Shown here piece after piece: positions 4,905-16,348 of a stretch of DNA of 64,000 nucleotides. The stretch is taken from the NCBI GenBank assembly GCA_002688185.1, contig NZCE01000039.1, forward strand, positions 24,483-88,482. Direction: 5' to 3'. The stretch comes from Spirochaetales bacterium (GTDB lineage: Bacteria; Spirochaetota; Spirochaetia; ARS1246). Position 1 is the first letter of the stretch. Every line of letters starts with the position of its first letter. The notes beneath the pieces are model-generated. The model saw nothing but the letters and a program-made list of their open reading frames with translations. It made no database searches and had not been told where the DNA came from. The position numbers and the translations under genes were made by a program.

Positions 4905-6768
4905 GCGCCCGGAAACCAGGAAGCTGGGACGGTTTGGCGCGGTATTAGTACTACTCGGTATAGCGGTCCTCGTAATCATCTGGAGATACATATCCCTGAT
5001 GTTGTTGACACCTGAAATTCAACAGAATCCTGCGCGGCGGACCACCGTAGAGCGCGGCCCAATCCTCGACAGAAACGGCAGAATACTCGCCATCCAAACC
5101 GAGCTCTACTCGGTAACGGCTTGGAAGCCTGAGATTGAAGACAGAAACCGGATTATCGATGTGTTAGGGCCTATCATTGGCATGGACGCAGGATCGATTG
5201 TAGCGATCCTTTCAAGGCAGGCTTCTTTTAACTATATCAAACGCAAAGTGACACAGCGGGAAAGTGATCGGATCAAGGAGCTTATTGACAGCGGCGAGTT
5301 GCCCGGTATCCATCTTCAGCGGGAGTTTAGCCGCACATATCCTGAGGAAAACCTTGCCTCGCACATACTTGGCATAGTAGGAGTGGACAACGAAGGGCTG
5401 GAAGGGTTGGAGCTGGTATATAACAATATCCTCAGTCCCCCCATTGAGGAATCAAATCAAGATATAGTGTATGGTAGCCAACTATTTCTGACAATTGACG
5501 TTAATATCCAGTATATGGCTGAAAAGCTCGTGGCAAAAACTTTGGACGAGAATCAGGCAGATTCGGTCATGATCCTAGTGATGGATGCTCGTAACGGAGA
5601 TTTACTTGGTTACGCGTCGGCGCCGGATTTTAATCCCAACGTCTACAACTCGTTTCCACCAAGAAACCGCCTAAATCGCCCGGCACTTTCAGCGTATGAG
5701 CCCGGATCGGTGTTCAAAGTATTTACCATTGCCAGTATGCTGGAAATTGGGGGAGTCACTCAGCAAAGCACGTTTACCTGCAACGGATACTATGAGCACC
5801 CTGATATTCCTGAGCCTATCAACTGTCTCGGCACCCATGGCGTTGTAAATCCAACGGCTATCATAAAGTATTCGTGCAATGCCGGAGCCGCCTATGCGTC
5901 AGAGCTTGTCGCAACGAACATGTTTTACGATATGCTGCGTCGGTTTGGTTTTGGATCGGAAACGGCCTTGCCCTTCCCCGGCGAGTCAAACGGACTTCTC
6001 ACTCAGCCTGCACAATGGTCGGCCCGTACAAAACCGACAATGGCATTTGGCCAAGAAATTTCTGTATCGGCAGTACAGATCGCCGTGGCCGCCACAAGCT
6101 TCGCCAATGCCGGAATGATTCTAGAGCCACACATCGTAAAAAAAATCGTCTCCCCAGAAGGGCGCGTGCTGGAAGAATATGCTCGCAAGCCTCTCTCCGA
6201 TGCTATCTCACAGGAAACAGCCCGGGCGATGTTACTCATGATGGAGCAGGCGACGCTTTCCGGCGCAACGGCGACCCGCGCGGCAATAGATGGAGTCCGA
6301 GTGTCGGCAAAAACCGGCACCGCTCAAATATTTGATGTGAAAACGGGCAAGTATTCCGAAGAGGCCTTTATTGCATCATGCTTGGCCATATTCCCAACTG
6401 ACGACCCACGATTGGTGGTTTATTCGGTAATTGAACACCCAAAAGCAGGCGAAACGTACGGGGGTCGAATAGCCGCACCGATGATTCGGGAGATCGGCAG
6501 AGAATTAGTTGAATACCTTGAAATCCCCAAATCATCGGATATTGTCTATGAGCATGACGGCACCGTTCGTGTTAGCAGTGCGCCTGAGCTCGTGCTTGGC
6601 AATGTTTTACCCGACTTCACCGGCTATGCAAAAAGACAGCTCATGAGTCTGCTCCAGAACCGAGACGTAAAGTTTGATATTAATGGCGAAGGTTGGGTAA
6701 TCAAACAGAATCCAGCACCCGGAACCCCCATAGAGAAGGGCATGCTCATCAAGCTGGATCTTGAATGA
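4885..6768 (+). CDS. ftsI: Division-type penicillin-binding protein (PBP2/FtsI) with PASTA domain
   Basis: This is a class B penicillin-binding protein that crosslinks septal peptidoglycan, working with FtsW. A short cytoplasmic N-terminus and one membrane helix (about 17-41) lead into the dimerisation domain (about 55-190) and the transpeptidase domain. The three active-site motifs are intact: SVFK (Ser275, Lys278), SCN (330-332) and KTG (476-478). A single PASTA domain occupies about 570-627. The start is TTG at 4885, with AAGAGGG about 7 nt upstream inside lepB. The gene is not in the dcw cluster at the other end of the window, where ftsI is often found. Its stop overlaps the start of the DUF115 gene (ATGA). 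Confidence 0.93.
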   Translation: MTLGGDRRPETRKLGRFGAVLVLLGIAVLVIIWRYISLMLLTPEIQQNPARRTTVERGPILDRNGRILAIQTELYSVTAWKPEIEDRNRIIDVLGPIIGMDAGSIVAILSRQASFNYIKRKVTQRESDRIKELIDSGELPGIHLQREFSRTYPEENLASHILGIVGVDNEGLEGLELVYNNILSPPIEESNQDIVYGSQLFLTIDVNIQYMAEKLVAKTLDENQADSVMILVMDARNGDLLGYASAPDFNPNVYNSFPPRNRLNRPALSAYEPGSVFKVFTIASMLEIGGVTQQSTFTCNGYYEHPDIPEPINCLGTHGVVNPTAIIKYSCNAGAAYASELVATNMFYDMLRRFGFGSETALPFPGESNGLLTQPAQWSARTKPTMAFGQEISVSAVQIAVAATSFANAGMILEPHIVKKIVSPEGRVLEEYARKPLSDAISQETARAMLLMMEQATLSGATATRAAIDGVRVSAKTGTAQIFDVKTGKYSEEAFIASCLAIFPTDDPRLVVYSVIEHPKAGETYGGRIAAPMIREIGRELVEYLEIPKSSDIVYEHDGTVRVSSAPELVLGNVLPDFTGYAKRQLMSLLQNRDVKFDINGEGWVIKQNPAPGTPIEKGMLIKLDLE

Positions 6769-8591
6769 CATATTTTGAGGGCAACGCGGCGGAAATAGCC
6801 GCTTTCCACCCTTCTTTTATGACAGAGATAGTGGCAAAATACGAGCCGGACAATAAACTTAAAATCGTTGAGACACAATCCGGGCTTCCTACGGCTCGTA
6901 TACACGGAGTGTATCTACACTCATTAAGGGATCCTGCCAGGGAAGCCGAGCGGGTGCTGCAACATGATGATGACCGGTCCTGCGTTTGCTGTGTGTTTTT
7001 TGGCTTTGGTTTGGGATATTTTGTGGAAGAGTTTTTGAAGCGCCACCCTAATACGCCGGTGGTTATCATTGAGCCCAACAGTCGGATGTTTTTAAGCAGT
7101 TTGGCGGCGAGAGACCTACGCCGTATTTTCAGTGCAGACAATATAAGTCTGCTCCTTGACGTCGAGCCAGAGGCAATCGCAACCGTTCTAAATCAGTTTC
7201 AATCCGGCCGTATTCGCATCGTCAGTCCTCGCTCCCTCGAACAGACTAATAAAAACTATTTTGTTCGTGCTCGGGCGGTAGTCGATTCGTTTCTCTCAAG
7301 ACGAGAAATAAACAAAAACACGCTAAAAAGATTTGGGAAACGATGGGTGAAGAATTTCGTCGGGAATATGTCTCTTCTGCTTTCGAGTCAAGGTATATCT
7401 TCTCTTGCCAACACATGCGTCGGCACACCCGCCATAGTGTTGGCCGCCGGTCCATCGCTCGACCAAGTTCTCCCGAGCATAGCTGAAGTGGGCAAGCGGT
7501 GCATCACAATTGCTGTAGACACGAGTTATCGCGCGCTGGAACGATTTGGTGCAAATCCTGACTTCCTCGTCGTAGTCGATCCGCAATACTGGAACACCCG
7601 ACACCTCGATGGGTGTGATACATCCAATACATTGTTGGTCTCGGAATCTTCCACTTTTCCGTCGGTGCTTCGGCGTGAATATCGAGGTATTTTTTTTGGT
7701 GATTCATTATTTCCGCTGGGAGCATACATTGAGGGGTGCCTTGGAGGATTCGGTAAAATCGGCGCCGGTGGCTCAGTGGCCACCTCCGCATGGGATCTTG
7801 CACGACATTTAGGTTGCAAGCCGATTTTCACCGCTGGTTTAGATTTAGGCTATCCGAGCAGCAGCACGCATTTTAACGGAGGCAGATTTGAGGAGTTGAT
7901 TCTGTCTAAAACGAGCAGACTGATGACTTCAGAATCGGGGAGCTTTCGTTTGCTGAATGATGCCCAATCATTTTTCGTTCCCGCTAACAACGGATCACGG
8001 GTTCTCACGGATCGCAGATTGATTACCTACAAGTGGTGGTTTGAAAATCAGCTTAAAATTTATCCCGAAGTTGAGAGCTTTACCTTGTCTAAGGACGGCG
8101 TAAAGCTGGACGGTATGCCGCTTGCGGCAATTGAGGACATACTTTCGCTGCCGGCAATTTCGGGGGCAAAGGCGTCGCTCATTCAAGTGGCGAAGCAACC
8201 TACTTCTGAAGAATTCGTTGAACGCGGTAGAAAACTGATAGTTGCCCTAGAGGACCTTCACGTGAAACTTCGTAGTTTTCTAGAGCTGGCTAAGAGGGGA
8301 GCAACCGTGGTATCTATGATCGACCCTAAAATGGGGATAGATCTCGCGTCTGCGTTGGATGAGCTGAATACTCTGGACGCTGAGCTCTTGTCCTCCGCCT
8401 CAAAAGATATTGTGGGATTTCTTATTCACGATACGGCCTACGCCATAGTTGAGCAGCTAGTCGATGGAGGAGACGGAGTGATGGATCATTCACATAGGCT
8501 ATATGAAGAATTGACCAAGGCATCCGAGTTTCATCTATCCTTGGTAACCAAGGCAGAAAACGAAATAAGGTTAAAGTTATGCGCCCACTAA
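6765..8591 (+). CDS. DUF115 / Maf-like motility accessory protein
   Basis: The 608-residue product belongs to the DUF115 family (MptE-like fold), which includes the Maf motility accessory factors. In several bacteria Maf proteins are needed for transfer of nonulosonic acids to flagellin. The supporting features are the glycine-rich FGFGLGY loop (79-85), the central TPAIVLAAGPSLDQVLPSI segment (221-239), and the later GGSVATSAWDLARHLG and AGLDLGYP motifs. It is translationally coupled to ftsI by a 4-bp overlap and is the last gene before a strong terminator. A role in flagellar filament glycosylation fits the large flagellar operon nearby, but the genetic linkage here is to cell-wall genes, so the acceptor remains an inference. 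Confidence 0.8.
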   Translation: MTYFEGNAAEIAAFHPSFMTEIVAKYEPDNKLKIVETQSGLPTARIHGVYLHSLRDPAREAERVLQHDDDRSCVCCVFFGFGLGYFVEEFLKRHPNTPVVIIEPNSRMFLSSLAARDLRRIFSADNISLLLDVEPEAIATVLNQFQSGRIRIVSPRSLEQTNKNYFVRARAVVDSFLSRREINKNTLKRFGKRWVKNFVGNMSLLLSSQGISSLANTCVGTPAIVLAAGPSLDQVLPSIAEVGKRCITIAVDTSYRALERFGANPDFLVVVDPQYWNTRHLDGCDTSNTLLVSESSTFPSVLRREYRGIFFGDSLFPLGAYIEGCLGGFGKIGAGGSVATSAWDLARHLGCKPIFTAGLDLGYPSSSTHFNGGRFEELILSKTSRLMTSESGSFRLLNDAQSFFVPANNGSRVLTDRRLITYKWWFENQLKIYPEVESFTLSKDGVKLDGMPLAAIEDILSLPAISGAKASLIQVAKQPTSEEFVERGRKLIVALEDLHVKLRSFLELAKRGATVVSMIDPKMGIDLASALDELNTLDAELLSSASKDIVGFLIHDTAYAIVEQLVDGGDGVMDHSHRLYEELTKASEFHLSLVTKAENEIRLKLCAH

Positions 8592-8634: not shown

Positions 8635-8676
8635 AAGCGGTATGCTTTGATGACGTCCAGGCATATCGCTTTTTTT
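8635..8676 (+). terminator. Rho-independent terminator after DUF115 gene
   Basis: The arms AAGCGGTATGC and GCATATCGCTT pair over 11 bp with one G-U pair, around a 14-nt loop, and are followed by a run of seven Ts. It lies 43 bp after the DUF115 stop. The run of Ts touches the stop codon of the converging minus-strand operon at 8675. Confidence 0.9.
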
Positions 8677-9598
8677 ATATCCGGCCGGCCAAGGCTCGGT
8701 TCTTCTCATAGGCCATGAGCTCGTCACGGCTGAGCTTCCCCTCTTCAATATCAACGCCGAGCTTTTTTGATAGGGCGCCTACAACCAATTGACTAAAACG
8801 CTCGAAAGTTGGTGTATCTCCCGATTCCTCGCCTATGCTCGTCATCGGCTCCAAAGCCTTATCTTTGATTTCAAGCGGCACCCAGATAACCTTAAAAAGG
8901 GCATCGGTGTCCATAGCGGTGAGAAACGCCACGATATTTATGATGAAAAGGTTTTCGATCTCGCTCAAAAGTATAGTTGCCAGTTTCTTTCCATGGGCAC
9001 GCACGGCTCCTTGATGTTTGTACCAGGCGTCGGCCACGCCAAGCTCTTTAAACACCTCAGTAAGGGTTTCCCCGATTGCGTGGAACGCATGGTCTCCGGA
9101 CTCAAATTTTGTTTTTTCGAACACCATCTGTACGTTGACGGTGGCATCAGGATCGATAAACACCAAAGTGCGTTGACCGGTTACGATAACGTAGTCAAGA
9201 TCCGGACACTCTCCCTTGATCTCGTTGATAAGATTGGCGAAATTAGCGAGGCAAATAATTGCGCGTGCACCTGCGTCTTTGAGTATAAAGCTTATCTCTC
9301 TGCCCTTATACATCGTATTAAACGGGACGGCCACCGAACCGATCTTCTGAATTCCAAAAAAACTAAAGGCAAACTCCGGTATATTGGGCATCATGAGGGC
9401 AACGCGATCGCCTCTGCCTATCCCTAGATTGGAAAGACCATTGGCCACCCGATTGGCGTTTTCATTGAGCTCCTGATATGTGTAGGTTTTGCCTTCAAAT
9501 CTCATTGACTCGCGTCGTCTAAACGTCTTGCTGATTTTCTCGAGTGTTTGCCCGAGGCCAATCGGAGGAAGCTCTGACGCCTTTGCTCTACTGAGCAC
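8675..9598 (-). CDS. Chimeric ORF: acyl-CoA synthetase N-half plus lipoate ligase-like C-half
   Basis: Residues 1 to about 142 read as the N-terminal subdomain of an AMP-forming acyl-CoA synthetase (TYTYQELNENANRVANGL, GDRVALMMPN, GSVAVPFNTMYKGREISFIL), but the text stops before the ATP motif YTSGTTGxPKG. From TLVFIDPDA (144 on) the sequence switches to what reads as the C-terminal part of a lipoate-protein ligase A-like fold (FIDPDATVNVQMVFEK, then HGKKLATILLSEIENL at 202-217 with the candidate lipoate-site lysine). The missing complementary halves are fused in the upstream ORF 9598-11016. The start is GTG at 9598, overlapping the upstream TAG by one base, so the two ORFs are translationally coupled. 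Both are in frame, with no stop at the junction. The acyl-CoA synthetase half is clear; the lipoate-ligase call is weaker and rests on sequence pattern and the neighbouring lipoyl protein. Confidence 0.75.
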   Translation of the reverse strand: MLSRAKASELPPIGLGQTLEKISKTFRRRESMRFEGKTYTYQELNENANRVANGLSNLGIGRGDRVALMMPNIPEFAFSFFGIQKIGSVAVPFNTMYKGREISFILKDAGARAIICLANFANLINEIKGECPDLDYVIVTGQRTLVFIDPDATVNVQMVFEKTKFESGDHAFHAIGETLTEVFKELGVADAWYKHQGAVRAHGKKLATILLSEIENLFIINIVAFLTAMDTDALFKVIWVPLEIKDKALEPMTSIGEESGDTPTFERFSQLVVGALSKKLGVDIEEGKLSRDELMAYEKNRALAGRI

Positions 9599-11016
9599 TA
9601 TTCTCCCCTCTCAACTAATCTAAGATCAGCATTCTCGCCCCGGAGCTCGCTGCGGAGGATCTTGCCGGTGGCGCTCTTCGGCAGCGAATCAGCAAACTCA
9701 ACAACTTTCGGCTGCTTGTACGGCGCGACCGTTGCCGCGCAGTGATCTATCACATCCCGTCCGGTCAACTGCTCTCCCTCCTTAAGCACCACAAACGCTT
9801 TCACAAATTCATCGCCTCGTTTGTCGTTCGCCGCTACCACCGCGGCTTCCGCCACCTTTGGATGGAGCATGATAACCTCTTCTACCTCTCGCGGCGAAAT
9901 ATTGAACCCGCCCCGGATTATAAGATCCTTTTTCCGGTCGGTGATAAAAAAGAACCCGTCCTCATCACGGTACCCAAGGTCTCCCGTGTAGAACCAACCG
10001 TCTGCATTGATTGCCGCTCCCGTTGCCTCGTCATTATTCCAGTATCCGGGAGTTACGGTAGCGCTTCTGATAACGATCTCTCCCACCTCACCCACATCAA
10101 GTTCTTTGTCTTCCTCTCCCCAAATCGTCATTTCCACGCCTTCAGCTGGAGGGCCAATACTTCCCTCCTTAAAGACGCCGCCGGCCCCGTTACAGGAGAC
10201 GCTTGACGTCGTCTCGGTGAGTCCATATCCCTCTATAATTTGGGTATCAAACGTATCCATAAACTCGCGTAAGGTAGCGAGGGGTAGCGGCGCTCCCCCG
10301 GACACGCAAAACTTGAGACTTTTTGGAATACTTGTTTTGCGAGACCGGGAAATGGTGAGTAAATGCTGATACATGCTCGGGATTGCAGGCATAATAGTCG
10401 CTTTGTTGTCGGCTATCACGTCAAGGAGCGTTTGCGGGCTGTATTGCGGGATCATTACCAGGCATGCGCCGTTATTGATGGTCACAACCAAGGAATTGGC
10501 GAGACCGTATACGTGATAAAAGGGCAGAACACCGATTACGCGGTCTTCATGGGTAAAAGGAATAAGTGAATTTACCACCGTATTGCACTGGAAATGAAAG
10601 TTTTTATGGGCAAGGGCAACGCCTTTAGGATTGCCTGTTGTGCCGGACGTGTAGAGGATAACAGCCGGGTCATGCTCATCAACAGGAACCGCATTATAAT
10701 TGCGAGAACCCTTTGCCATCAACTCGCTCAAAGGAAGAGTACCCACCGCGCGAGCGCCGTTCCTCCCCTGGCGTGGCGCCTGTGCAACCTGAATGTCCGC
10801 CTCGGTCGCGGCGTTCCGGTCCACGCGGACGTCTGCCCCCGCAATAATGCCCATGTTTTTGCTGCGTTGAATGATGACGGTGTCTGGAACGACGGTGGTC
10901 GAGAGCTGGTATTTGCCGGCAATCCGCCCCTCGGCCACGGCGGCTCCATATGACACCACATCCAAAGCGTCCCCTTCCGGATTATAGATTAGCCGCCAGT
11001 TTTTTGACTCAGGCAT
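9598..11016 (-). CDS. Chimeric ORF: lipoate ligase-like N-part plus acyl-CoA synthetase C-part
   Basis: The first 85 or so residues (MPESKNWRLIYNPEG, then VPDTVIIQRSKNMGI) are not part of any acyl-CoA synthetase; they resemble the N-terminal region of a lipoate/biotin ligase-fold protein. From about residue 90 the protein is the catalytic remainder of an AMP-forming acyl-CoA synthetase: ATP loop YTSGTTGNPKG (122-132), GYGLTETTS, GWFYTGDLGYRDEDG, DRKKDLIIRGGFNISP and the C-terminal catalytic-lysine motif PKSATGKILR. The adenylate-forming N-subdomain is missing here and sits in the next ORF. ATG at 11016 has AGGAG in the end of the symporter gene, 2 nt downstream of that gene's stop. The junction (80-92) is Gly/Arg/Ala-rich. 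Together the two ORFs contain apparently complete sets of both enzymes, cross-fused. Confidence 0.75.
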   Translation of the reverse strand: MPESKNWRLIYNPEGDALDVVSYGAAVAEGRIAGKYQLSTTVVPDTVIIQRSKNMGIIAGADVRVDRNAATEADIQVAQAPRQGRNGARAVGTLPLSELMAKGSRNYNAVPVDEHDPAVILYTSGTTGNPKGVALAHKNFHFQCNTVVNSLIPFTHEDRVIGVLPFYHVYGLANSLVVTINNGACLVMIPQYSPQTLLDVIADNKATIMPAIPSMYQHLLTISRSRKTSIPKSLKFCVSGGAPLPLATLREFMDTFDTQIIEGYGLTETTSSVSCNGAGGVFKEGSIGPPAEGVEMTIWGEEDKELDVGEVGEIVIRSATVTPGYWNNDEATGAAINADGWFYTGDLGYRDEDGFFFITDRKKDLIIRGGFNISPREVEEVIMLHPKVAEAAVVAANDKRGDEFVKAFVVLKEGEQLTGRDVIDHCAATVAPYKQPKVVEFADSLPKSATGKILRSELRGENADLRLVERGE

Positions 11017-11018
11017 GC

Positions 11019-12563
11019 TCAGCTCCTGGTTTCAGCCCTAAGATATTCACTCACTTCGTCAAAAAACTGATGCTCAATTGCCTCCGAAGGCCTGGGGGTA
11101 AGCTTGCTCACGACGATGTAAACGATGGTATTTAAGATCAAGCTCGGTAAGACCGGACTTCCGCCCACCGCGAGAATTCTCTCACCCCCTACCACGATAA
11201 CAAAAGAGAGCACCAGGTAGATTACCCCTGTCAGCGTTCCGGCAATGGCGCCTTGTTTTGTGCCGCGCTTCCATAACAAGCCACCAACAAGTGCCGGTGC
11301 CCATTGGGCAAAACCCGGTACACTCACGTCGGTAAGATAGAGAGCCATTGCTCCCTCCCGGAGAAAAGTCACTCCTAAGCTTGCTAAAACTATTACGATC
11401 ACCGCCCATCTGGCCCAGTTGGTAATCTGCTTATCGGAAGCTTCGGGTTTGAACAGACCTTGGATGACGTCTCTGCTGACAATTACACTAGAGGTCATGA
11501 GTTGCACCGCAGCCGTGCTTATAGCGGCCGCAATAACTCCAAGCAAAACGTATGCGCCAAACCACGACGGCAGGTTCCGCGTAATGACGGTCTGCACGAC
11601 TCTGTCGGCCTCAATTTGCAGCTCTACGTTGTTGGCTGCGGCCTCCGCGGCAAGTTCTTCTACCGGAAGTGCCGCCGGGGCGACGATTGAGCCCCAAACG
11701 AAAGGAATAATGTAGAAGAAAAGACCGCCAAACACAAAGATTAAAAGAGGGAACCACTTGAACAGCGATTTGTCGCGTGCGGTCATGCACCCTATTGAGA
11801 TATGCGGCCAGCTAAAAGCAAGAAGCCCCACGAAAAAATACCCGAACAATTTGATGGAGGAAAAAAAGCTCTGCGGTCCGGGCGCAGAAAGCATCTCAGG
11901 ACTACGTCTTTTTAGAATCTCAACCGCCTGAACCAAGCCGCCGTCTGGAAAAAGCTTGGAAACTACCCAGATAAGGCTTCCCAGGAGGGCGGTCACATAC
12001 ACTATTCCAAGGAATATGTTGACCCACGCCACGATTCTCATACCACCCAAAAGAACAAGCGCGATGAGAATCACCGCCGCGTAGGCCGCCCCCCAGATGG
12101 CCGGATAACCCGTAAGCGCGTTGAAGCCCGCACCGACACCCATGGGCTGGATCGAAACATACGGTACGATAAAGGCGAGAATGCTCACCGATATTATGAA
12201 CCGCAATCCTTTGGACTCGTAGCGTTCCGCCAATAGCTCCACCGGTGAAAGAAATCGATTGATTTTAGCAAGGGCCCAAAGCCTCGGACCAAGAAACATA
12301 TATAATCCGGCGAATCCGGCGACGCTTCCCCAAATAAAGACTACGTACCCGGGACCCTGCGTGTAAAGAAAGCCAGGAAAGCCATAGAAGGTCCAAGCCG
12401 AAGAGACGGCAAACAGAACGAAGAAAAACATGACGACTACGCCGATTGTTCGGCCACCAAGCATAAAATCTTCGGCCGTTTTTGCGGAGATCTTGTACCC
12501 ATATGCCGCCATTAGGACAATAACGGCCCCAAAAAGGGCCAATGCTATAATAGTAATTGCCAC
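11019..12563 (-). CDS. Sodium:solute symporter family transporter
   Basis: This is a 514-residue polytopic membrane protein of the SSS (SglT/PutP) family, which couples substrate uptake to sodium entry. It shows the family's N-terminal pattern (AEDFMLGGRTIG at about 30-41, then a Ser/Ala-rich helix with AVSSAWTFYGFPGF), the ISTAAVQLMTSSVIVSRD segment of the sodium-site helix region, and about 13 hydrophobic segments. The start is GTG at 12563 with AGGAGG just upstream. It follows a 77-residue membrane protein by 9 bp and precedes acyl-CoA synthetase sequences by 2 bp, so its substrate is probably a carboxylate that is then activated or used by this operon. The specific substrate cannot be read from the sequence. 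Confidence 0.9.
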   Translation of the reverse strand: MAITIIALALFGAVIVLMAAYGYKISAKTAEDFMLGGRTIGVVVMFFFVLFAVSSAWTFYGFPGFLYTQGPGYVVFIWGSVAGFAGLYMFLGPRLWALAKINRFLSPVELLAERYESKGLRFIISVSILAFIVPYVSIQPMGVGAGFNALTGYPAIWGAAYAAVILIALVLLGGMRIVAWVNIFLGIVYVTALLGSLIWVVSKLFPDGGLVQAVEILKRRSPEMLSAPGPQSFFSSIKLFGYFFVGLLAFSWPHISIGCMTARDKSLFKWFPLLIFVFGGLFFYIIPFVWGSIVAPAALPVEELAAEAAANNVELQIEADRVVQTVITRNLPSWFGAYVLLGVIAAAISTAAVQLMTSSVIVSRDVIQGLFKPEASDKQITNWARWAVIVIVLASLGVTFLREGAMALYLTDVSVPGFAQWAPALVGGLLWKRGTKQGAIAGTLTGVIYLVLSFVIVVGGERILAVGGSPVLPSLILNTIVYIVVSKLTPRPSEAIEHQFFDEVSEYLRAETRS

Positions 12564-12572
12564 GGGCTCCTC

Positions 12573-12806
12573 CTATCGGTACGGCCAAAAGAAAAAGAAA
12601 TAGATGATGTAGGCAACCAGCCAAAAAAACACAAAAATGATTCCCGAAATCAGAGGCATAGTCATCCAGCCGAACACTACTATCGGCTCTCCGGATTGTG
12701 GCGCTTCCATACCGCCCATAAACAGAAAGACGATGAACCCAATGATTGATACCAGGAGCGCAATCAAATAGATACGCCCCGCCGCGTGACGTGTCATTTC
12801 CTTCAT
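12573..12806 (-). CDS. Small two-helix membrane protein preceding the symporter
   Basis: The product is 77 residues with two hydrophobic segments (about 11-29 and 43-74) and an aromatic C-terminus ending in FFFFWPYR. Small proteins of this kind often precede SSS permeases as accessory partners (for example DUF997 or DUF3311 types), but I cannot place it in a named family. ATG at 12806 has no clear ribosome site; a TATAAT box 7 bp upstream suggests a leaderless transcript could start here. The second in-frame methionine (residue 4) is an alternative. A role in assembly or regulation of the symporter is inferred from adjacency only. Confidence 0.7.
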   Translation of the reverse strand: MKEMTRHAAGRIYLIALLVSIIGFIVFLFMGGMEAPQSGEPIVVFGWMTMPLISGIIFVFFWLVAYIIYFFFFWPYR

Positions 12807-12861: not shown

Positions 12862-14361
12862 CTACTTCCAAGTGACGACGCAGCCGGCAGCCGTTAGCCC
12901 GGCTCCAACGGCGCATAGAAGCAGCTTGTCTCCGCTTGCGACTACCTGTTTTTTTTCAAGATCCTTCAACGCCAGAGGGATCGATGCCGCCGATGTATTA
13001 CCCAGATGTCTGATATTTGAGAAAAATCTCTCGGGCAATGCCTTGATTCGCTGGGCCACGCTCTTGAGAATTCTCTGATTTGCCTGGTGGGGCACGAACC
13101 ATCTGACGTCTTTGAGGGCAAGGCGTGCCTTTGTGGCTACCGACTCGATAATTTGCGAAAAGTTGGTAACGGCACTTCTAAACATCCGGCCGCCATCCAT
13201 ATACCAGAACTCGTCCTTCTCAGACGCCATTCTGCGTGGGGGCATTTCCGATCCGCCTGCCTTGCGATAGATGATATCGTAGCCGGTTGAATCCGCCCTG
13301 AGCACGATATCCGTCAGTATGTGACCCACCCGTTCCGAAGATAGCACGGCCGCGCCCGCACCATCTCCAAAGAGAAACGCGGTCGCTCGATCAGTCTGGT
13401 CGGTATATACGCTCATAGTCTCCGCCGCAATTACTAGAATATTTTTGCACGTGCGAGTCCTGAGGAATTGCTGCGCTACGGATAACGCGTAGAGCCAGCC
13501 GCTGCAAGCCGCCTGCATGTCAAACGCAGGGATGTTTTCGCACCCGAGTCTCTGCTGTACCGCACACGCTGTAGCCGGCAACGGCATATCGGGGGTTGTG
13601 GTCGCGAGGATAATCATATCGATATCGCTAATTCTTAGCCCTGAGTTTTCAATCGCTTCCTCGGCAGCGGCCACCGCCATATCGGATGTCTTTTCTGCGT
13701 CCACCCATCGGCGTTCCTTAATACCGGTGACTTTTTCAATATATGATTCGCTTATGTCGGGGAAATGGGGCGCGAAAATGCTGTTGCTAACGATTTTTTG
13801 AGGCACGTAAGCTCCCATGCCCGCGATATAACTTACAATTGTTTTGCCATCATCTTGAGTGGCCTCATCAGCTTCCGTACGCAGATGGCGCTCAACATCA
13901 TCTGCGGTAAGCCGGCCATCCGGGCCGGTGCCCGGTATCTGTTTTGCTTCATCATCAGAAATCGCTCTGTCGCGGAGAAGTTTTTTTGCCCTAGGGCTGA
14001 TAGAAATGCGAGATCTAGCTGCGTTTACCACGCCCTTCCCATTGCCTCCGTTAATGATCGCCGGCGCGGCCTCGTTCTGCTGCTGTAATAAATGCCGAAC
14101 ATTTGCATCGACGGTTTTCATGTCCAGCAACGGCGCCTTAACCTCTACAACGTCACCGGGTTTTGCTCTGAGGGAAAGTATTTCTCCCTCGCACGGCGCC
14201 TCAAACTCCCATACCGATTTTTCCGTCTCAATTTCAGCAATATGCTGTCCTTTCTGAACAGTCTCGCCAGGTTCTACCAGCCAATTCACAAGTATTCCGT
14301 CTATAATGGATTCTCCAGTAAATGGCATTGGTATAGTCACAACGAATTCGTGAGAACTCAT
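12862..14361 (-). CDS. Lipoyl domain - E3/E1-binding domain - ketoacyl-ACP synthase III fusion
   Basis: This 499-residue protein has E2-like front parts joined to a ketosynthase. Residues 5-82 are a biotinyl/lipoyl domain with the lysine to be lipoylated in EIETEKSVWEFEAP (Lys48). Residues about 117-160 form a peripheral subunit-binding domain (ISPRAKKLLRDRAIS ... GTGPDGRLTADDVERHL). Residues 174-499 are a complete FabH-type KAS III with the catalytic triad Cys286 (DMQAACSGW), His425 (WFVPHQANQR) and Asn455 (RHLGNTSAAS). There is no E2 acyltransferase domain and no HxxxDG motif. The start is ATG at 14361 with AGGAGAA upstream, 10 bp after the E1 stop; an in-frame extension to 14496 overlaps E1 and looks like no known domain. 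Inference: the acyl group made by E1 on the lipoyl arm is passed to Cys286 and condensed with a malonyl donor. Confidence 0.93.
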   Translation of the reverse strand: MSSHEFVVTIPMPFTGESIIDGILVNWLVEPGETVQKGQHIAEIETEKSVWEFEAPCEGEILSLRAKPGDVVEVKAPLLDMKTVDANVRHLLQQQNEAAPAIINGGNGKGVVNAARSRISISPRAKKLLRDRAISDDEAKQIPGTGPDGRLTADDVERHLRTEADEATQDDGKTIVSYIAGMGAYVPQKIVSNSIFAPHFPDISESYIEKVTGIKERRWVDAEKTSDMAVAAAEEAIENSGLRISDIDMIILATTTPDMPLPATACAVQQRLGCENIPAFDMQAACSGWLYALSVAQQFLRTRTCKNILVIAAETMSVYTDQTDRATAFLFGDGAGAAVLSSERVGHILTDIVLRADSTGYDIIYRKAGGSEMPPRRMASEKDEFWYMDGGRMFRSAVTNFSQIIESVATKARLALKDVRWFVPHQANQRILKSVAQRIKALPERFFSNIRHLGNTSAASIPLALKDLEKKQVVASGDKLLLCAVGAGLTAAGCVVTWK

Positions 14362-14371
14362 ATTTATTCTC

Positions 14372-16348
14372 CTACATTGATAGAAGTCTCTGTATTGTTT
14401 CCGCGATTGATTCCCGGCCTGGACGATACACTTCCTCAAGTTCAGGTGCGAACGGAACGGGTGTGTCCGGTGGGGTAAAAAGCATGGGCGGCGCATCTAG
14501 TTCAAAAAATACCTTTTCAAGAATTCCGGATATTATCCAAGATCCAATGCTACATGCGCCCCAAGATTCGTGGACGACCAGCAATCTGTGAGTTTTAGTC
14601 ACGGATTCGGCCAATGTATCCCAATCAAACGGCTTTAATATCCTCGGATCAATAATCTCTATCGAAGCGTCCAGCCGCTTCTCCACCGCTTGCACCGCGG
14701 CGATGACTTCATGAAACATCGCACCATAGGCAAGTATTGTCAAATTATCACCTGCTTTGTGCACGCGCGCCTTTTCAAGCCGCTCTATTTCTCCCGTAAA
14801 AGTCACGTTTCCCCGCAGCCGCCTATGGAGAAACTTGTTTTCAAAGAACAGCACCGGATTGTCATCGTAGATAGAACCAAGGAGAAGTGAAAAATAGTCC
14901 TCGACGACGGACGGATAGACCAACTTCAAACCAGGAAATGTGCCGTAGAGGCCCTCGAGATCCTCCGAATGGAAAGGACCGTAGCTCAATCCCCCTCCTC
15001 CCGGCATCCGAATAGTAAGGGGCAGCCGCCTGCCCGTCCTGAAAAAGAAAGTGCCGGCGTTTACGCATATTTGTGTTATCGCATCGGTGCTAAAATCGGA
15101 AAATTGCATTTCCACCACAGGTCGCAATCCCATCTCAGAGGCACCAATGGCAAATCCGCAGAATCCCGATTCTGCCAACGGCATGTCGATCACTTGGCCC
15201 CGTCCAAACTCTTTAAAAAGGTCCTTTGTGGCCTTGAACGGACCTCCAAAATACCCTATATCTTCACCAATTAAAAAAACATTGCTGTCATGAGCCAAGG
15301 CATGATGAAGTGCGTGATTAACAGCTTGCACCGGAGTTAAGTTTTCGCCACTGTGGGGTGGCAAAGTAATATCCGGCTTCGTCTCAGCGAAAACGTTCCA
15401 TCCAATGGAAGAAGGATTAATCTTCTCAGCCTGCAGGGCTCTATTGGACTCGTCATCAATCTTCCGATCCCATTTTTCTTCAAGATTTTGCATTTCGGAC
15501 TCAGACTGAATCCCTTCACTAACAATTTTAGACCGCGCCATCGGGACCGGATCTTCTCTTTTCCATGTATTGAGCTCATCCGCCGGCACATATTCGGCCT
15601 TATCGTACGCCGCATGACCCGATAGACGGTAGGTGTCTGCCTGCAAAATAAACGGCTCACCCGTGCTTCTCATTTCTTGTACTATATCATTGACCTCACG
15701 ACATACCAGCGATACGTCGGTTGCTTTTATCTTCTTGCCCTTTATCCCGTATCCGGCGGATCTCAGGGAAAGATCAGAGCATTTGAATTGGAGAGAGTTT
15801 GGCGTAGAATACGCCCATTGATTGTTTTCAATAAAAAAAAGTACAGGAATACCCAGAACCGAGGCAATGTTTATTGATTCATGAAAATCGCCTGTGCTCG
15901 TGCCTCCATCTCCAATAATTGCCAGTCCGATAGAGTTTTTTCCCTGCTTCCGCCTGGCGTACGTTGCCCCAACAACATTTGGCAGCATGGCCCCCAAATG
16001 GCTCACCATCGGTAGCAGACCCCGCTCAGGTATACCGTGGTGGACGTTTCCGTCCTTTCCCTGTGTTGCGCTGTCTTTATTTGCTATGTAATGTGAAAAA
16101 AGATGATAGATGGACACCCCCCAGATGAGATATCCTGCAAAATCCCGTTGCATAAAATTGCAGACGTCAGTTTCAGGGTTCAGCGTTGAAACAGCACCTA
16201 CTATCGCCGCCTCGTTCCCTTCTCCCGACGTGACGGTACCCTTTACTATGCCCTGCCTATAGAGCTCTATCAGCCTATCTTCACACTTGCGAGACATGTA
16301 CATATACTTGTACATCCGAAGCAGGGCATTGAGTTCATGCAAAGGCAT
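14372..16348 (-). CDS. 2-oxoacid dehydrogenase E1, fused alpha and beta subunits
   Basis: The 658-residue protein is a thiamine-diphosphate 2-oxoacid dehydrogenase E1 with alpha (1 to about 325) and beta (about 335-658) subunits in one chain. It decarboxylates a 2-oxoacid and reductively acylates a lipoyl lysine. The ThDP/Mg motif runs from GDG (146-148) to NN (175-176), and the phosphorylation-loop region RLSGHAAYDK is at 241-250. In the beta part, LIGEDIG at 359-365 holds the expected catalytic Glu. The loop that is usually HSQ is HSE here (FHSEDLEGLYGTFPGLK). Substrate (pyruvate or branched-chain oxoacid) cannot be settled from sequence. ATG at 16348 has GGGGAGA upstream. It is the first gene of the operon; no E3 gene is in the window. 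Confidence 0.93.
   Translation of the reverse strand: MPLHELNALLRMYKYMYMSRKCEDRLIELYRQGIVKGTVTSGEGNEAAIVGAVSTLNPETDVCNFMQRDFAGYLIWGVSIYHLFSHYIANKDSATQGKDGNVHHGIPERGLLPMVSHLGAMLPNVVGATYARRKQGKNSIGLAIIGDGGTSTGDFHESINIASVLGIPVLFFIENNQWAYSTPNSLQFKCSDLSLRSAGYGIKGKKIKATDVSLVCREVNDIVQEMRSTGEPFILQADTYRLSGHAAYDKAEYVPADELNTWKREDPVPMARSKIVSEGIQSESEMQNLEEKWDRKIDDESNRALQAEKINPSSIGWNVFAETKPDITLPPHSGENLTPVQAVNHALHHALAHDSNVFLIGEDIGYFGGPFKATKDLFKEFGRGQVIDMPLAESGFCGFAIGASEMGLRPVVEMQFSDFSTDAITQICVNAGTFFFRTGRRLPLTIRMPGGGGLSYGPFHSEDLEGLYGTFPGLKLVYPSVVEDYFSLLLGSIYDDNPVLFFENKFLHRRLRGNVTFTGEIERLEKARVHKAGDNLTILAYGAMFHEVIAAVQAVEKRLDASIEIIDPRILKPFDWDTLAESVTKTHRLLVVHESWGACSIGSWIISGILEKVFFELDAPPMLFTPPDTPVPFAPELEEVYRPGRESIAETIQRLLSM

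Follow-up and report, generated by a model that had tools for sequence, protein, structure and literature searches.

On the reverse strand of the window, by which we mean the whole 64,000-nucleotide stretch of DNA analysed here, lies a gene (12862..14361) for a 499-residue protein in which a lipoyl domain and a peripheral subunit-binding domain (PSBD) are fused to a beta-ketoacyl-ACP synthase III (KAS III), as judged from its translation, Pfam and NCBIfam searches, its relatives and a structure model. The lipoyl domain occupies residues 9-80 (14122..14337, reverse strand; PF00364, Biotin_lipoyl, E = 9.6e-15). Within it, the motif ETEKS at residues 45-49 contains Lys48 (codon 14218-14220, reverse strand), which, we infer, is the residue that carries the lipoyl group. 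The PSBD follows at residues 121-157 (13891..14001, reverse strand; PF02817, E3_binding, E = 3.7e-8), and the KAS III domain, with Cys286, His425 and Asn455, fills residues 178-498 (12868..13830, reverse strand). Pfam matches this last part with ACP_syn_III (residues 280-357, E = 1.1e-26) and ACP_syn_III_C (residues 411-498, E = 6.4e-31), and the NCBIfam model fabH, TIGR00747, gives residues 178-498 a score of 322 bits, above its cut-off of 292. The NCBIfam models for E2, in contrast, reach only about the first 172 residues (best 25 of 31 matches). A Pfam search of all 499 residues returned no match to PF00198, the acyltransferase core of 2-oxoacid dehydrogenases, and no acyltransferase catalytic domain of the QncL type behind the lipoyl domain. 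The preliminary description, made by reading the sequence, had placed the same motif, domains and catalytic residues where they are found here; its claim that a KAS III stands in the place of the acyltransferase is borne out by the domain search it had proposed.

The AlphaFold2 model of the fusion, built on an alignment of 60 sequences, has a mean pLDDT of 90.6, and the strands of the lipoyl barrel, the PSBD helices (123-131, 136-139 and from 153 on) and the KAS III are all modelled with confidence. Residues 96-116 fall below 50; as in the linker of a swinging arm, this segment is probably flexible. The top Foldseek match of the model is the FabH of Staphylococcus aureus (1zow; TM score 0.96 by target), and PqsD and MxnB are among the other fold matches.

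The fusion gene starts with the ATG at 14361, and the GGAG ahead of it overlaps the stop codon of another gene, which lies 10 bases upstream (14372..16348, reverse strand). Its 658-residue product is a ThDP-dependent 2-oxoacid dehydrogenase, or E1, with both halves in one chain: an alpha half matched by PF00676 and a beta half matched by PF02779 and PF02780. This fused E1 is the predicted acyl donor of the lipoyl-PSBD-KAS III fusion.

The fusion is not confined to the window. A first search through about 5.8 billion proteins, from which the best 120 of 7997 matches were considered, gave full-length relatives at 35-69% identity. Among these 120, about 60 are 49-70% identical, with Salinispira pacifica, Spirochaeta lutea and Spirochaetales as the named ones, and most of the remainder are 35-41% identical over their full length and bear the names Pelagicoccus, Opitutaceae and Opitutales. 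A second search with the relative P0095 (best 120 of 4205 matches) revealed a further group of proteins of about 440 residues from the Fibrobacterota, including Chitinispirillum alkaliphilum, Chitinivibrionales and Fibrobacter. P0095 itself has the lipoyl and KAS III domains and no Pfam match to a PSBD; in a protein of this type, E3 would have to find the lipoyl arm without a docking domain on the protein. The preliminary description had proposed looking for the fusion in other genomes, and it has now been found in the Spirochaetota, the Opitutales (Verrucomicrobiota) and, lacking the PSBD, the Fibrobacterota. In the first search, after five sequences shorter than 430 residues had been set aside from the 120, Lys48, Cys286, His425 and Asn455 were each kept in 115 of 115 relatives. 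Such conservation, together with the full-length relatives, makes a chance fusion, a frameshift or an assembly error very unlikely, and we have rejected these explanations.

A quick tree search of 89 KAS III domains places all 43 lipoyl-linked ones, fused and split, on one side of a branch (SH-aLRT 95) and the 46 others on the opposite side, which is most simply read as a single origin. Of the proteins that carry a name in public records, most are entered as beta-ketoacyl-ACP synthase 3 or III. Viral contigs and plasmids gave no relative with a coverage of 80% of the query. A scan of the genome collection with P0001 gave at least 80 loci, whose best segments cover the KAS III, with a few extending back to residue 118-170; in the 16 loci inspected, namely those in which a plus-strand frame with PHQAN stays open for 380 residues or more, no lipoyl motif was found ahead of the KAS III.

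How closely is the fusion tied to the fused E1? For the spirochaetes, the linkage rests on the gene order in the window and on contigs of equal length. When 60 spirochaete-group fusions were compared with 46 E1 matches, 23 of the fusions had a longest contig exactly as long as that of an E1 match, down to a contig of 3963 bases that leaves room for little beyond the two genes. The same coincidence was seen for 5 of 123 Fibrobacterota-group fusions and for none of 54 in the Opitutales group (the best 120 E1 matches being used for both), and it never occurred between the fusion lists of different groups. Two fusions of the Fibrobacterota list, P0145 and P0176, do share the length 1722 by chance; single matches between short contigs are therefore weak evidence, which cannot be said of the 23.

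A different view of the system came from 189 genomes of the class that contains the Opitutales MAG of L008. Eight of them have a near full-length match to the fusion, at 60-65% identity. In two more (G020 and G092), the KAS III matches the query at 68% and 66% identity with the lipoyl part absent from the match, but a separate lipoyl-PSBD frame stands just upstream of it; in G163, an in-frame TGA divides the lipoyl-PSBD part from the KAS III. The class thus has ten KAS-bearing genomes, seven with the fused and three with the split form (G020, G092 and G163). The split forms sit in the clade of the fused Opitutales-group forms in the tree of 89 domains, and the finding of the lipoyl-PSBD unit and the KAS III as two adjacent frames argues that the two act together. 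The conserved gene neighbours in this class are a CTP synthase, a DAHP/KdsA-family synthase, an RNA methyltransferase and two genes without a Pfam match; we tried these neighbours as a clue to function and found them uninformative.

With the E1 of the window as query, an uninterrupted fused E1 was found in 16 of the 189 genomes, at 497-559 bits. In G092, an 860-residue frame is matched in two pieces and reaches 461 bits at full length by tblastn, which brings the total to 17. The E1 matches that come next (412-476 bits) are interrupted by a stop, with alpha and beta in separate frames. As a query of its own, the lipoyl-PSBD unit of G020 also finds 17 of the 189 genomes at 130 bits or above, with a best score of 61 elsewhere, and the two sets of 17 are identical; ten of the 17 have a lipoyl-linked KAS III. 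These genomes are related and do not amount to 17 independent events. The two genes are not neighbours in any of them: they lie 57 kb or more from each other or on separate contigs.

The remaining seven of the 17 genomes (G173, G187, G065, G116, G059, G107 and G154) have the lipoyl-PSBD unit alone, and no KAS III was found in the 7.6-13 kb around it. The lone units share their neighbourhood, with the DAHP/KdsA-family gene and the RNA methyltransferase, with the KAS-linked ones, and the best KAS IIIs of all seven genomes are ordinary FabHs with Thr, Trp and Arg at positions 28, 32 and 36. The stand-alone proteins (L153-L159) look like a "headless E2", with the fused E1 elsewhere in the genome in 7/7. 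It follows that the pair of E1 and lipoyl-PSBD unit need not feed a KAS III of this kind. These seven genomes either use a different enzyme as the acceptor or have lost the KAS III, with a change of route. The same seven genomes each hold one divergent KAS III-like protein (L169-L173, L175 and L176) in a frame of 345-411 residues, with Leu, Arg, Met and Glu at FabH positions 28, 32, 36 and 87.

The KAS III domain itself differs from an ordinary FabH at the place where CoA sits. In FabH, the adenine of CoA is held between Trp32 and Arg151. Simulations of PqsD, as given in passages of PMC3734052, assign contributions to CoA-substrate binding to Arg36, Thr28 and Phe32, and Arg36 positions the substrate in the E. 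coli enzyme according to part of PMC10054515. Using E. coli FabH (NC_000913.3) as a residue ruler, we aligned 80 ordinary KAS IIIs with 229 fusions. Thr28, Trp32 and Arg36 are each present in all 80 of the ordinary enzymes; in the fusions, Thr28 is kept in 6 of 229, and Trp32 and Arg36 in none. Position 32 is Tyr in every spirochaete-group (57/57) and Fibrobacterota-group (119/119) fusion, and Glu, Asp or Gly in the 53 of the Opitutales group, while Arg36 is replaced by Val, Leu, Ile or Thr; the protein of the window has Ile, Tyr and Val at the three positions. Cys112, His244, Asn247 and Asn274, on the other hand, are kept in 229/229 and Arg249 in 228/229. The fusions have lost the residues that seat CoA and retained those that catalyse and those that face ACP. 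Arg151 has a more uneven record: it is kept in 56/57 spirochaete-group, 63/119 Fibrobacterota-group and 0/53 Opitutales-group fusions.

A paired control is available within the ten KAS-bearing genomes of the Opitutales class. Each has an ordinary FabH besides the lipoyl-linked KAS III, so the idea that the fusion is the sole KAS III of its genome was dropped; the Thr-Trp-Arg set is complete in the housekeeping FabH in 10/10 and in the lipoyl-linked enzyme in 0/10. It is worth pointing out that the loss is not unique to the fusions, since divergent KAS III-like proteins of these genomes without a known link to lipoate share it: L167-L173, L175 and L176 lack all three residues and L174 lacks two. 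The FabH of S. aureus, which uses acyl-CoA, has Met at position 36 in the alignment and keeps Thr28 and Trp32, so Arg36 alone is dispensable. Position 87 was considered as a mark of a larger acyl pocket and abandoned, since Met, Leu or Ile takes the place of Phe87 in the housekeeping FabH of every one of the 17 genomes as well.

The loss of the CoA-seating residues, the co-occurrence of the fused E1 with the lipoyl-PSBD unit and the equal-length E1 contigs of the relatives together support the reading that we favour and hold to be probable, in which the fusion and the fused E1 form a CoA-free starter of fatty acid synthesis, probably of branched fatty acids. The E1 would decarboxylate a 2-oxoacid, probably a branched-chain one, and acylate the lipoyl group on Lys48. 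The lipoyl arm would then hand the acyl group directly to Cys286 of the KAS III without passing through CoA, and condensation of this group with malonyl-ACP by the KAS III would yield a 3-oxoacyl-ACP that could prime iso and anteiso fatty acids. The PSBD would dock E1, E3 or both, and E3 would reoxidise the dihydrolipoyl group. In more general terms, we see a rather better than even chance that this is a 2-oxoacid dehydrogenase complex that forms carbon-carbon bonds without CoA, has a KAS III in place of its E2 core and occurs in at least three bacterial phyla. The bypass of CoA, from dihydrolipoyl to the cysteine of the KAS III, was the central proposal of the preliminary description. It has gained real support from the residue loss and the co-occurrence, and direct transfer is the best available explanation of the sequence data; it is nonetheless still a step that we infer, and the seven genomes without the KAS III weigh against it.

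Known E2s deliver their acyl groups to CoA or, in a small number of secondary pathways, to ACP. The fusion resembles the E2 of 2-oxoacid dehydrogenase complexes in its N-terminal lipoyl domain, linker, PSBD and adjoining E1 gene, but the PF00198 core, which uses CoA and forms the multimeric center of the complex, is absent and the KAS III takes its place. Likewise, it resembles FabH in its fold, Cys-His-Asn triad, ACP-facing residues and fabH model score, and differs in the absence of Trp32 and Arg36 and, nearly always, of Thr28, and in having a lipoyl domain attached or encoded next door. By its sequence, the protein would be E2-like up to the lipoyl arm and FabH-like from the cysteine on, rather than an E2. 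The Bkd complex and FabH of Bacillus and Staphylococcus follow a similar logic, from a branched 2-oxoacid to a branched 3-oxoacyl-ACP; their route, however, passes through free acyl-CoA and a separate FabH. The nearest precedent we found is the lipoyl-to-ACP transfer of the QncL type. As described in passages of PMC6335953, the QncN/QncL/QncM and SclQ1-4 systems bring glycolyl from a ketose through lipoyl to ACP, and thus share with the fusion a ThDP enzyme, a lipoyl carrier and a hand-over of the acyl group to ACP. According to the same passages, QncL-type proteins use an acyltransferase domain to give the glycolyl group to ACP for a peptide synthetase, whereas the fusion has a KAS III and is predicted to form a C-C bond.

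This precedent also suggests an alternative, namely that the KAS III acts as an acyltransferase only, moving the acyl group from lipoyl to Cys286 and on to ACP or another thiol, so that FabF or FabB would elongate the acyl-ACP and the fusion itself would make no C-C bond. Acyl transfer to the cysteine is, after all, half of the FabH reaction, and with an ordinary FabH in all ten KAS-bearing genomes there is no obvious need for another condensing starter. We nevertheless regard the alternative as unlikely: His425 and Asn455, which decarboxylative condensation needs, are kept in all 115 relatives, and the domain scores above the fabH cut-off.

The nature of the 2-oxoacid is a separate matter, on which the two halves of the E1 disagree. 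The alpha half scores higher with branched-chain E1 alpha (145 bits) than with its pyruvate counterpart (97), and the beta half higher with pyruvate E1 beta (231 bits) than with the branched-chain one (195). The best NCBIfam matches of the whole E1 are pyruvate E1 models, below their cut-off. The beta half and these top matches would suit a version of the same chemistry in which pyruvate delivers acetyl into straight-chain fatty acids, as a route that saves CoA and makes no branched starters. We consider such a version distinctly unlikely in view of the alpha half, of the ordinary FabH that exists beside the fusion, and of the iso and anteiso acids made by the carrier lineages. Among the named carriers, Salinispira pacifica contains 11.7% iso-C15:0 as well as anteiso-C15:0, and anteiso-C15:0 is dominant in Chitinispirillum alkaliphilum; members of the Opitutales and Opitutae, kin of the carriers and not identified as carriers themselves, contain iso-C14:0, iso-C15:0 and anteiso-C15:0. 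Branched fatty acids are common and are also made by bacteria without the fusion. Branched-chain 2-oxoacids appear to be the likeliest substrate, and the start of branched fatty acids the likeliest role; the preliminary description had named neither.

Could the acyl group still travel by way of CoA? One can imagine that another E2 core turns the acyl group from E1 and the lipoyl domain into acyl-CoA, that the fused KAS III then takes up this free acyl-CoA, and that the fusion merely keeps the partners together. Other E2s do exist in these genomes: of those with PF00198, nine of the ten KAS-bearing genomes have two and G020 has three, and of the seven KAS-less genomes two have two and five have three. 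Two in each genome are of ordinary size; the third one, present in six of the 17 genomes, lies inside a frame of 1051-1580 residues (1140 in G020). In six of the 17 genomes (G116, G154, G065, G136, G173 and G059), an E2 even lies at a distance of 6-16 kb from the fused E1. Each of these six, however, scores above the sucB cut-off and is the SucB of 2-oxoglutarate dehydrogenase, with a 2-oxoglutarate E1 just upstream in G154 and a dihydrolipoyl dehydrogenase just downstream in G116; we therefore rejected the idea that the fused E1 works with the E2 near it, and the result left the odds of our main reading unchanged. In all three genomes used for comparison, where E1 alpha and E1 beta are separate genes (G160, G122 and G161), an E2 follows directly after E1, and no PF00198 core lies directly beside the fused E1 in any of the 17. 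From the identity of the nearby E2s and the placement of E2 in the comparison genomes, no E2 core that could be assigned to the fused E1 was seen in the 17. The Arg151 of most spirochaete-group fusions and the Met36 of the S. aureus enzyme would be compatible with a CoA-dependent fusion, but the near-complete loss of Thr28 and the complete loss of Trp32, both invariant in the ordinary enzymes, speak against it, as do the SucB identities, and we find the CoA-dependent route quite improbable.

That the complex makes a specialised metabolite or another ketone, and not a starter of membrane fatty acids, is highly improbable: KAS IIIs of other pathways exist, with PqsD and MxnB among the fold matches, yet the fusion is present in three groups of bacteria and its identified neighbours in the Opitutales class do not form a biosynthetic cluster.

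A literature search for a lipoyl-KAS III fusion, or for its logic, found no paper describing one among the open-licence papers of PMC, in agreement with the preliminary description, whose author knew of no such enzyme. If our favoured reading is true, a lipoyl-to-ketosynthase hand-over would couple the decarboxylation of a 2-oxoacid directly to chain initiation and save one CoA round trip. It could also explain how some members of the spirochaetes, Opitutales and Fibrobacterota come by branched starters without an E2 dedicated to branched chains, and the fusion would be a compact starter module for engineering. The logic of lipoyl and KAS in one protein is hidden by the plain synthase names that the public records give.

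Several other features of the window deserve a brief account. Directly downstream of the fusion, on the same strand, come a small hydrophobic ORF of 77 residues without a Pfam match (12573..12806) and a sodium:solute symporter (11019..12563; PF00474). Both are possible members of the system and might bring short acids into the cell for its pathway. Beyond them are two overlapping ORFs on the reverse strand. The one at 9598-11016 begins with 92 residues that have no significant Pfam match and by eye resemble the N-terminus of a lipoate ligase, followed by the C-terminal part of an AMP-forming acyl ligase, and the one at 8675-9598 has the N-terminal part of an acyl ligase followed by a weak LplA-B_cat match. 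The two look like swapped halves of two genes, whether rearranged, circularly permuted or misassembled, and no repeat common to both joints was listed. Farther away, a Maf/MptE-like protein is encoded on the forward strand (6765-8591), and the reverse strand carries flagellar export and basal-body genes between 25172 and 45527, including FlhA/FHIPEP, FliP, a flagellar-type ATPase, FliH and FliF. These genes are in keeping with a motile, spirochaete-like host.
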